Part shown: in pieces, positions 2,108-36,877 of the stretch
Position numbering within the stretch: the stretch's first letter is position 1
Layout: each line of letters opens with the position of its first letter
From: an uncultured Bacteroidales bacterium
GTDB lineage: Bacteria > Bacteroidota > Bacteroidia > Bacteroidales > Paludibacteraceae
Assembly (NCBI GenBank): GCA_902800525.1
Contig: CADCEV010000002.1
Span: 190,545-254,544 of the forward strand
DNA: 64,000 bases
Direction: 5' to 3'
Translations under genes and position numbers: made by a program
The notes under the pieces: generated by a model
Seen by the model: only the letters and a program-made list of their open reading frames with translations
Database searches by the model: none
What the model was told of the DNA's origin: nothing

Positions 2108-5100
2108 ATGTTGAAGAAATTATCATACATATGGATTGCGCTGGCAATAACTGCTACAGCTGCTGCTCAACTGCCGCATAATTATTATTGCGACTTTGAG
2201 AACGAGGCGGAGAATGTCCTTTGGACACTCAACAAGCCCAAGAATGAAAACTACGAATGGTCTAACCAATGGGCTATTGGTACCGCAGAAGCCGAATCCG
2301 GTTCAAATAGCATGTATATATCTACGGACGGAGGAGCGACGTCCGGATATGTAGCCACTTCCAGTATCGTGATTGCATGGCGTGAACTTACTTTGGATGC
2401 CGGTGAGTATGATCTGACTTTTGATTGGAAAAACGTAGGTGACTCCATGCGCGCTACAATGCTTGTGGCTTGGGTTCCGGAAAGCGATTTTGATGATGTA
2501 TGGTGCTCTAAAAACACTAACTATAAGGTGCAGAAATGGATAAATAACAATATGCTTCGATGCTACGGTTCGGAGTTGTTCGGCGGAGCTTCCGTTTGGA
2601 CGCATTCTCTCACACATCTCACGTCTGATGGTAAACCTCACCGCTTGGTATTTCTATATTTGACAAGTGTAGGTGTGCAGTGTAACCCTCCGGCCGCATG
2701 TGTAGATAATATCCATATCGCATCCAACGCATGTGGAGAACCTAAGAATAGGAGAATCGGTTTAGTGGATCGTATTGTATCTCTTTCATGGGAGAGTACC
2801 GCAGAGAAATTCAATATCAAGTTTATTAAGATTGGAGATGCGCAAGCCAAACCGATTGTCTTCACCGGTGTGACCGGGAATAGTGCGACTTATTCTATCG
2901 AGACGGGAGTATATAACGTGTATATCCAATGTGTCTGCAACGGAGAGGAAAGTGTATGGTATGAATTCCCAGTTGTCATTGTTCAGGACCATTTGTGTTT
3001 CAATTATCTAAGTCTAACCGACGAGCGTTGCTCGTTTTCCATGGAGACGGCGAGTGATTACCACGATAACGATCCTCTTATGCAACCTGGGAAAATAGAC
3101 TATGGTTTTACTTCCATGTATAGTCGTCATACGCTCCATTATCGTCCGGAGGAATACGATGCGCGTACGATAGGTTCCATTGATAGCAAAGGCAATCCGG
3201 TAGGACCGCTTAAGACTGTGCCCGCGGATGCTTTAGCATCCGTTCGTATCGGCAGCTGGGAGAACGCGGCACGAGTAGCACGAATCGAATATGAATTCAC
3301 GGTGGATGCTAAAGAGGCCAGTGTTCTGATGTTGCAATATGCTTTGGTTTTGCAATCTTCCGGTCATGGAGAGCAAGACCGTCCTCGTCTGACCATCGAT
3401 ATCATAGATGCCGCTACAAAAAAAGCACTCAGCACATGTACAACGGTCGATCTGGCGGCGCAGACCAGTGGTGACGGATGGTATCGCGTTCCGATGGATG
3501 CCAACCCGATTATTGAAACCGCCCAGGATGTATGTTGGCGTGATTGGACAACGCTGGGACTCAACCTTGCTGACTTTGACAAGAAACAGGTGAAAGTGAT
3601 TATCACCGCTATCGGTTGTACCGCTTCTGTGCACTACGGCTATGCCTATTTCACGCTCACCTGTACTACCGGTCAGATACGTGGACTCCAGTGCGGATGG
3701 ACTCCGACGAACGAGTTCATCGCGCCGGATGGTTTCAATTATAGATGGTATCTCGTAGAAGATCCTACAACCACTCTGAGTACCGAACAGGTGTATCCGG
3801 TGGATTACCGCGACACGCGTGATTATGCCGTGGATGTGATCTATAAGTCGAATGACCAATGCAGATTCACGCTGACGGCGAATGCTATTCCGCGTTTCCC
3901 TATTCCGCAAGCTACCTACAAATTGGAACAGCACGATTGTGGCAATTATATCACTTTCACGAATACCAGCCATATCCGTACACGCAACTGGGTTACGGGA
4001 CAGGAGACGGATACGCCCTTCCCGCCGGAGTATATCGTTTGGGATTTTGGCGGTTTGGACCCGGAAGGACTGAATACCGCGGAGACTTTATGGAATCCGT
4101 CATTCCAACTGCCGGACGAAGAAGCCGACTACCATTTCCGGCTGTACGCAGGTGTGGGCTTATGCGACAGCGTGCAGGAGTTTCATATCCATGTGCCGCG
4201 TGTCGGTGTAGATTCCGTCTTTGGCACCAAGCAGTTATGCGAGGGAGATATCTATCAGCATCAAGGGAAATATTTCTCCACCGACACGGTTTTGGTTGAA
4301 AAAGATGTGAACGTAGCCGGATGCGACAGTTTCTATATCATGACTCTGCGTTTCGTGGATGCCATCCGCGATACGGTGGACGCTATCATTCAGGATGGAG
4401 ACACCTTTACCGTAGGTCCGCAGCAGTTTACGCAAACGGGCGACTATATGGTTACGATGCGGTCTCTATCCGGATGCGACAGTATCGTAACCCTGCATCT
4501 GATAGTGAACGAACGTCTGGAGATGGAACTTCTCTCCGTAGAGAGCCCTTGCCCCGAAGATCCCTCTTTCCTTATAGAAGCGCACGCGCGTAAAGGGAAA
4601 CCGGATTCTTATACACTCACTTTTGCCGAACCGGCTCAAGAGCAGGGACTGATGCCTCAGACCGGAAAACTAACCGGCGGACCCGACTACACCATCACCG
4701 TTCCGCTTCCTAAAAACCTCCAACCGGGCTATTACCCCTTCACCTTGCGCTTTGACAGTAAGGATAACGGGCCGGTCGAACTGACCTCAGAAATGGCGCT
4801 CCGCTATTCCGCTACCCTCATTCAGCAGCGGTGGGATGATGTATTGGGCATCCTCAATGCGGACTACAACGGCGGACTGACTTTCGCTTCATACCAATGG
4901 TACAAGAATGGCATTTTGATTGAAGGCGCAACGGAACCCTTCCTCTATGAGGAGAACAAACTGAAACCTAACGACGAATATACGGTCGAACTGTTGCAAC
5001 AGGGAGAAGAAAGACCCCTCGCAACCTGCGCCTATAAAATCCCTCAAACTTCAATCCCGCAGGCTCCGACAAGACAGAAAGTGATACAAAATAACAATAT

Positions 5101-36263: not shown

Positions 36264-36370
36264 ACGCTAATAATTTAAGAATTAAACGTGCCTTTCAGCT
36301 AAGATTCGTTTTGTTTTAGTACCGCGAGCCGGGGTCGAACCGGCACAGCCATCACTGGCCAAAGGATTTT

Positions 36371-36745
36371 CATACATTCACTGTTGATCACTCAGTGCCT
36401 GCTTGGACTATGTCTTAACCCTATCTTTTCAGACGTAGGTTGCGGGTATATAGTCTCTACACATTTAGGTCGCCTTGAGGCTTCCACTTAGCTCGGCGTT
36501 CTGAACATTTATAAGGCTGTTCCATTCACCGAATTAGCCCGCTTCTACTTCAAACCTTTCGGCTTGAGCACTCTTTACCTTTGTTTTTTCTTGAATTTTG
36601 CGTTTTACGGTATCGTAGTTGCTTCCCGCTATGCGTAGATGTAATTTCTCAATTACTTGTGCATACGAATAACTGCTACGTACTGCTTCTACAAAATCCT
36701 GATCTGTCCATTTTCGTTTACTCATAAACTCCAATGTGTTTGTCA
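36371..36745 (-). mobile_element. Group I self-splicing intron in tRNA-Leu(UAA)
   Basis: 375 nt. The 5' exon end GGACTT can pair with an internal guide GAGTTT (36731-36726), giving the required U-G pair at the splice site (P1). The intron ends in G (36371), the expected omega-G, right before AAAATCC of exon 2. The conserved core has the R-type segment AGAGACTATA (36458-36449) and the S-type segment AAGACATAGTCC (36417-36406), whose GACTA/TAGTC arms form P7. A P8-like stem AACC/GGTT (36441-36438 with 36420-36417) lies between. An ORF starts directly after P1. Confidence 0.92.
36534..36725 (-). pseudogene. Truncated HNH homing-endonuclease fragment in the intron
   Basis: 63 codons from the ATG at 36725, which follows the P1 guide sequence immediately. 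The residues MSKRKWTDQDFVEAVRSS, then QVIEKLHL, GSNYDTVKRKIQE resemble the N-terminal region that precedes the zinc-ribbon and HNH motif in intron-encoded and phage HNH endonucleases. The HNH domain itself is missing, so homing activity is unlikely. The last residues (KSAQAERFEVEAG) do not match the family and run into the intron core. It could still be translated. Confidence 0.7.
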
Positions 36746-36799
36746 AAGTCCTTCGTGTCTACCTATTCCACCATCGCGGCGCGCTAAGCGCAGGTAGTA

Positions 36800-36846: not shown

Positions 36847-36877
36847 CAAAGGTACTGCTTTTTTTTCAATTACGCAA
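36847..36877 (-). promoter_or_regulatory. Promoter of tRNA-Leu
   Basis: On the minus strand: TTG (36877-36875), 20 nt, TACCTTTG (36854-36847). Confidence 0.8.

Follow-up and report, generated by a model that had tools for sequence, protein, structure and literature searches.

The question raised by this locus is how a group I intron came to lie within the anticodon of the tRNA-Leu(UAA) gene of a gut Bacteroidales bacterium, and whether it was inherited there or acquired. The textbook example of an old and stable group I intron is that of tRNA-Leu(UAA), classic in cyanobacteria and plastids, where it belongs to subgroup IC3 and interrupts the gene between U34 and A35. Most of what is known of it comes from cyanobacteria and chloroplasts, but in Bacteroidales it looks mobile, since relatives with an intact endonuclease gene and a viral contig carry the same intron. 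All positions refer to the window, i.e. the whole stretch of 64,000 nucleotides that was analysed, and the gene is arranged on its minus strand as follows.

36847..36854, minus strand: TACCTTTG, candidate Bacteroidota -7 promoter element upstream of the tRNA (sequence match to consensus)
36780-36746, minus strand: 5' half of tRNA-Leu(UAA), ending CUU with U34 as its last base (sequence; ARAGORN on the joined exons)
36745-36371, minus strand: group I intron of 375 nt, with the terminal omega-G at 36371 (covariance models, covariation and rejoined exons)
36370-36320, minus strand: 3' half of tRNA-Leu(UAA), from A35 to the discriminator base, starting AAAAUCC (ARAGORN on the joined exons)

A sequence-only reading of this DNA had proposed that the two halves form an 86-nt tRNA-Leu, that the break falls between U34 and A35 and that the intron ends in an omega-G, and each of these proposals held. 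When joined, the exons were intact and formed an 86-nt tRNA-Leu(UAA) with full tRNA pairing and the intron directly after U34, which ARAGORN called as tRNA-Leu(taa) in a default run; the unjoined locus yielded no call. With introns allowed, ARAGORN reported a 375-nt intron in the unjoined locus and labelled the tRNA Phe(gaa), which we take to be the same intron placed one base off; the group I reading, with a break after U and an intron ending in G, gives the anticodon of Leu(UAA). In bacterial mode ARAGORN called no tRNA in any of eight split loci and also missed the window's gene, and hence reports such loci as lacking tRNA-Leu(UAA). The candidate promoter matches TAnnTTTG, which we take to be the Bacteroidota -7 consensus, and TACCTTTGCA likewise lies upstream of the tRNA in loci L003 and L048.

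Group I ribozyme core

The Rfam covariance search that had been proposed as a check returned a match of the group I model RF00028 to the window over the full model length (36583-36398; E 1.7e-5), at a score of 29.3 bits that lies under the gathering score of 50. Across seven related loci, the same model scored 46.4 bits in L048, 43.8 bits in L186 and 30.1 bits in L003, with no match at E 0.01 in L187, L192 and the Lak phage loci L050 and L051. A further RF00028 match of 27.7 bits was found in L049 (genome G162, same order), which gave no match with either of the covariance models R1 and R2, and which was read as lying at the start of a sufB-like coding region and is probably false. The RF00028 match alone was therefore rejected as proof, and a separate covariance test was built because this false-looking match scores close to that of the window. 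Model R2, constructed from 35 introns with the window's clade left out, matched the window at 85.7 bits (E 2.5e-18 in 98,520 bases, the E-values of such models being rough).

Covariation was assessed in an alignment of 51 cores, that of the window plus 50 selected from the collected tRNA-Leu introns, over a hand-drawn structure of P2, P3, P4, P5, P7 and P8 taken from the window. The paired elements are as follows.

36550..36567, minus strand: P2 hairpin UCAAGCC/GGUUUGA with a GAAA loop (7 of 7 pairs with double changes, 92.7% of cells paired)
36538..36542, minus strand: P3 5' strand GCGGG, with its partner CCCGC at 36446-36442 (100% of cells paired)
36533-36527 with 36498-36492, minus strand: P4 (84.9% of cells paired)
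36522-36518 with 36507-36503, minus strand: P5 (61.2% of cells paired)
36455-36450 with 36411-36406, minus strand: P7, GACUAU/AUAGUC, enclosing the 3' strand of P3 and P8 (seen in the sequence)
36441-36438 with 36420-36417, minus strand: P8 (covaries)

Standard pairs made up 87.9% of 1721 cells across the 51 cores, against 33-45% when the partners were slid by 1-3 columns, and the covariation score was 0.604 against 0.168 in shuffles. Two of the five covariation measures did not stand out against shuffles, namely the pairs with double changes (25 of 34 against a shuffle mean of 22.6, with at least 25 reached by 21 of 500 shuffles) and the further pair types (71 against 73.4, hence no excess). 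The P7 helix, which had been recognised previously, is conserved, with five of its six pairs invariant in the 51 rows and the sixth pairing in just 18, whilst the low pairing of P5 is, we think, due to the difficulty of alignment across clades. The omega-G column was invariant in 51 of 51 rows, partly by construction, since the pattern used to collect the introns required this G. Within the six aligned rows of the window's own clade, every counted pair was standard and double changes occurred in P2, P3 and P5: one P3 pair, U-A in the five other members, is C-G in the window alone, and in P5 the window shares G-C/A-U with L165, against U-A/G-C in the remaining four rows. A P3-P8 catalytic core with a conserved P7 is thus present, and the clade-excluding covariance model, the covariation and the rejoined tRNA together support the original proposal, namely that a group I intron interrupts the tRNA-Leu(UAA) gene of this Bacteroidales genome between U34 and A35.

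A decayed HNH endonuclease in the P1 loop

Two further features were located in the intron, the second of which, a decayed HNH open reading frame in the P1 loop, had been overlooked by the sequence-only reading.

36573-36568, minus strand: internal guide and P1 3' strand GAGUGC, pairing with exon ACUU (U34.G), directly 3' of the ORF
36725-36534, minus strand: 63-codon ORF in the P1 loop, the N-terminal part (a third) of an HNH endonuclease with the rest deleted (phrog_10822 match)

A P1 helix with a U-G pair had been described earlier, and the U34.G pairing does exist, but the 3' strand of P1 is GAGUGC downstream of the ORF; the GGAG near the 5' splice site had probably, at a guess, been taken for it. 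GAG[TC] occurs within the first 60 nt in just 8 of 26 long introns, and P1 from GGAG was accordingly rejected. Among long introns in which the core match extends to the start of the model, 26 of 26 have GAGUGC immediately 3' of the ORF, a figure partly due to that selection, with seven of 33 long rows, all viral, set aside and some rows representing the same genome twice. As the guide follows the ORF in these introns, the ORF fills the P1 loop. The ACUU exon strand of P1 is invariant across introns and leaves nothing for covariation to score.

The 63-codon ORF matched the N-terminal part of the HNH family phrog_10822 (E 3.8e-7), with the HNH motif itself deleted. Its stop codon is a UAA in J3/4 of the ribozyme core (tail KSAQAERFEVEAG, 36573-36534), and the ORFs of L213, L217 (the same contig as L254) and L253 were observed to stop at the same place and in the same frame, so that coding and ribozyme sequences overlap. 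Between common anchors the window is 319 nt shorter than L165, which, like L003, L062 and L155, keeps an HNH ORF of 164 codons; in L213 (G484) the intact ORF runs to 169 codons. In the sister genome G022, L003 is a 688-nt version of the intron with the full 164-codon ORF from its ATG, matching the Pfam HNH family at E 4.5e-6. Comparison of the L003 and L165 ORFs (dN 0.056, dS 0.82) shows, at the level of substitutions, strong purifying selection on this HNH protein.

Other introns presented different degrees of decay. The 376-nt introns L065 and L186 carry a deletion, L137 and L191 have an ORF stop after 22 codons, and the 239-nt introns L048 and L120 are without an ORF. The 204-nt cores of L130 (731 nt, ORF present) and L162 (214 nt, ORF absent) are identical, which points to a very recent gain or loss of the endonuclease.

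That selection maintains the 63-codon remnant itself as a small DNA-binding protein, one that might repress the locus or shield the anticodon site by competition, was considered and is unlikely. Over the first 46 codons, six synonymous and two non-synonymous changes are found in the window only, dN and dS relative to L165 are 0.023 and 0.79, and L065 keeps the same HNH N-terminal part with a deletion junction that, as we read the alignment, differs from that of the window, all of which would fit such a protein. However, the changes are few and the selection may predate the deletion, and in the shortened introns L060, L124, L134, L146 and L152 the longest ORF, if any, is not the HNH N-terminus.

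Search for an intact tRNA-Leu(UAA) gene in the host genome

A second, intact tRNA-Leu(UAA) gene had been named as potential counter-evidence, and none was found in the host genome G000 (2.39 Mb in 33 contigs, 92.7% complete), although an intact second copy could lie outside the assembly. This genome gave 42 tRNA matches, of which ARAGORN named 41, the partial match C20:2648-2716 being the one without a name. The leucine anticodons named were CAG, GAG and TAG, with neither Leu(TAA) nor Leu(CAA) among the 41, and an intact anticodon arm pattern allowing up to three mismatches gave 0 matches in G000. Nor did the intact arm match in the other intron-bearing genomes G019, G020, G022 and G443. One intron-bearing genome, G027, did have an intact-arm match, but was rejected as a clean intron carrier in that its intron lies on a 10.8-kb contig and the genome has 7% contamination as well as the intact copy.

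These results bear on a highly improbable alternative, in which the locus is a tRNA-Leu(UAA) pseudogene with an intron remnant and UUA is read by a gene outside the assembly. The HNH ORF is indeed truncated, the window's end branch in the core tree is 0.2 (median 0.06), and the incompleteness of the assembly and the lack of a tRNA-Leu(CAA) call from ARAGORN point in the same direction. Against a dead insert stand the paired double change in P3 that occurs in the window alone among the six clade rows, the intact exons with their full tRNA pairing, and the absence of an intact anticodon arm match from the five genomes listed above.

Distribution among bacteria

Introns were collected by scanning genome contigs with a pattern covering the stretch from P7 to the T arm of the split tRNA-Leu, which fits Bacteroidota-like exons and leaves cyanobacteria out, so that the counts say nothing of cyanobacteria. 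At least 119 matching stretches were retrieved; among the matches listed, 88 were Bacteroidota, 26 Pseudomonadota and 3 Bacillota by title, with two without a phylum, and the intron is thus not isolated in Bacteroidota. A 5' half defining an intron of less than 1,250 nt was present for 108 of the 119 matches listed; for 10 others no 5' half lay within range, and L156 was dropped from the collected introns as spurious. The resulting set of 124 introns comprised these 108 (from the at least 119 stretches), 12 of 15 viral ones and four others, with a few records occurring twice. In this set, drawn from the matches listed, the viral introns and the four others, 82 introns measured 202-289 nt, another 11 measured 305-451 nt, and the remaining 31 had at least 641 nt.

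The intron is rare in the sampled genomes though the matches are many. Within the genus, the intron core was found by model R1 in 8 of 101 genomes, one of them doubtful, and by pattern in 7 of 101. RF00028 matched 3 of 61 genomes of the nearest relatives. At the level of the order, R1 matched 3 of 393 genomes, one of which (G291) is not in tRNA-Leu, and RF00028 matched 4 of 393, including L049; at the level of the phylum, the pattern matched 1 of 395 genomes, the window's own. An intact tRNA-Leu(UAA) anticodon arm was present in 36 of 61 genus genomes, 32 with exactly the window's flanks, the 25 genomes without a match including incomplete ones. The G291 match (L047, positions 1480-1765 of contig 127) is a group I intron of 106.6 bits, which lies after U34 of a gene with the reading of a tRNA-Ile(UAU) and adjoins another tRNA-like sequence.

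The gene neighbourhoods of seven intron-bearing and five intact tRNA-Leu loci were compared with the window's eight neighbouring genes. The NlpC/P60-like gene beside the tRNA was kept in G022 only (of the 12 loci compared), and weak AraC-like matches occurred among the neighbours in G022, G485 and G017, the last of these being an intact locus. A common neighbourhood as proof of one locus was dropped, as synteny neither supports nor excludes much.

Phylogeny of the introns

A core tree was inferred from 123 cores; for both trees constructed the program issued long-branch warnings, so that the deep joins are unsure. The closest partner of the window was L165 (uncultured Bacteroidales RUG454), within a clade of 11 rows, designated A, that comprises members of the genus, records of Paludibacteraceae and three records bearing the title uncultured Bacteroidales, with a support of 100/99 in the careful tree. 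The introns of G019 and G020, which occupy the same site in the same genus, fell into a lineage B together with those of Prevotellaceae and Rikenellaceae, and the Lak phage rows were placed in lineage B tentatively, owing to their long branch and odd base make-up. By their sequences, the introns at this site in the genus represent at least two distinct lineages. A single shared ancestral insertion in the genus was rejected by an AU test on the seven genus rows (p-AU 4e-44), in which rows of identical sequence on both sides were not constrained. Across the tree, the introns switched between the length classes (under 300 nt and longer) at least 20 times.

It is improbable that the intron is a vertical relic, resident in the tRNA-Leu(UAA) of a Bacteroidota ancestor, lost in most lineages and with the HNH gene as a late passenger. 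Long vertical stretches do exist, since the rows of Chitinophagaceae, Rhizobiaceae and Betaproteobacteria grouped mostly by host in the core tree. Such a history is opposed by the sparse occurrence in the phylum and order samples given above, by the two distinct lineages at one site in one genus and by the presence of the window's lineage in a viral tRNA gene. Independent gain and horizontal transfer had both been raised for this intron at the outset; transfer is favoured because of the patchy distribution, the two lineages at one site and the viral tRNA copy.

Viral copies of the intron

A search of viral contigs for the HNH gene retrieved L217, a contig of 166 kb whose tRNA-Leu(UAA) gene is interrupted by an intron of 745 nt that has an A-type core (109.7 bits) and encodes an HNH protein 73% identical to that of L165. 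With two Lak rows left out of the tree, L217 joined clade A (then a 13-row clade, support 100/99) as its outermost row, and as it lies outside all bacterial clade members the direction of exchange may be either way. The viral nature of this contig rests on its IMG/VR class; of five ORFs compared with PHROGs, a clear match was obtained for the HNH only.

A scan with the A-type core returned three viral stretches: L254 (the contig of L217 again), L253 and L255. L253 (3690-4440) carries in a tRNA-Leu the same ribozyme type as the window, at 104.3 bits, but the ORF in its P1 loop, endonuclease-like and 169 codons long, is a different one, and endonuclease swapping on one ribozyme is possible judging by these sequences. 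Phage carriage of L253 is well supported, with a terminase match in its record (E 7.3e-16); no terminase match was found in the records of L254, L255 and L172, which may be fragments. L255 (8560-8000, minus strand) has an A-like intron of 93.7 bits that interrupts an apparent tRNA-Lys(UUU) gene after U34, the exon of which also ends CUU and matches the guide's requirement.

Other viral records showed further arrangements. In the 101-kb viral contig of L172/L218, a tRNA-Leu-like gene has an intron with an HNH protein 66% like that of the window's clade and a ribozyme nearer lineage C, so that HNH and ribozyme may travel apart; a second R1 match of 31.7 bits lies 1.5 kb upstream. In Dulem virus 42 (L251, PP511876.1, approximately 2409-3020), an HNH ORF 66% like the clade's and annotated NinG lies in the anticodon loop of what looks like a tRNA-Leu-like gene, where R1 found no ribozyme core, and this endonuclease seems to have outlived its intron. 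Model R1, which was built without Lak rows, matched twice each in Lak-C1 (L050, MK250029.1; 1160-1288 and 1368-1544, 50.6 and 31.5 bits) and Lak-B1 (L051, MK250020.1; 1475-1604 and 1684-1860, 48.4 and 30.5 bits). With the exons read by eye, the Lak tRNA-Leu(UAA) appears to be interrupted twice by a group I intron, in the D arm following GGT and in the anticodon.

Proposed mechanism and significance

Taken together, we consider it very likely that the window contains a group I intron that spread horizontally, was once capable of homing and was probably exchanged with phages, and that its endonuclease has decayed here. By analogy with the intron family, the guide GAGU of the precursor would pair with exon ACUU (U34.G), a P7-bound guanosine would attack the bond that follows U34, and U34 would in turn attack after the terminal G, restoring tRNA-Leu. 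The HNH protein encoded in the P1 loop presumably cut intronless tRNA-Leu(UAA) genes, as its place suggests, whereby the intron would be copied into them. Spread would have been horizontal, probably by way of phages carrying their own tRNA-Leu(UAA) genes as presumed vehicles. In the window, a deletion of approximately 319 nt has taken away the catalytic HNH domain, so that the intron is predicted to splice still and to be incapable of homing by itself.

At this one site, Bacteroidales and other bacteria harbour several intron lineages, many with HNH and differing in endonuclease decay, which makes the cycle of gain, decay and loss of mobile introns testable within one genus, at a presumably essential gene. 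A bolder and doubtful extension is that the tRNA-Leu(UAA) anticodon is a battleground, at which an intron with a decayed endonuclease is a domesticated shield that selection keeps in the essential tRNA gene and not a dying parasite. If so, phage-borne HNH introns would cut the intronless tRNA-Leu genes of hosts or rival phages, and bacteria that have captured an intron would be immune, their target being split.

Comparison with known systems

The Synechocystis tRNA-fMet intron, likewise a tRNA group I intron with an endonuclease aimed at the anticodon region, reportedly encodes the homing endonuclease I-Ssp6803I, a PD-(D/E)XK enzyme; it differs from the present intron in the tRNA and in having this enzyme instead of an HNH. 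For cyanobacterial tRNA-Leu(UAA) introns, we know of no HNH ORF in P1.

A close counterpart is the tRNA-Leu(UAA) group I intron of cyanobacteria and plastids (PMC4476775). The window's intron has in common with it the gene, the break between U34 and A35 and a compact core of a few hundred nucleotides, but belongs to a host of a different phylum and has relatives with an HNH ORF in P1 and on viral contigs. Outside the cyanobacteria, putative group I introns interrupt tRNA-Leu-TAA in Beggiatoaceae (BOGUAY and Thiomargarita Bud S10), for which the authors state that they did not establish structure or type (PMC4853749); these are Gammaproteobacteria, and the Achromatium row of our core tree (L135, Thiotrichaceae) lay far from the window's clade. 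The Lak megaphages, which also have Bacteroidales hosts, possess tRNA introns called enigmatic in passages that name neither group I nor tRNA-Leu (PMC6784885). The tRNA-Leu introns of Lak-C1 and Lak-B1 lie at the same site as the window's, and group (tentatively) with lineage B, apart from the window's lineage. Phage introns known by 2014 lay in protein genes, according to a review (PMC3984707). Among the papers listed by full-text searches, PMC7886860 included, no prior report of this intron in Bacteroidota was seen, a weak negative as subscription papers lie mostly outside the collection searched. We accordingly rate the site and the ribozyme class as already known, and the HNH ORF in P1, the decay of the endonuclease within one genus and the viral copies as new.
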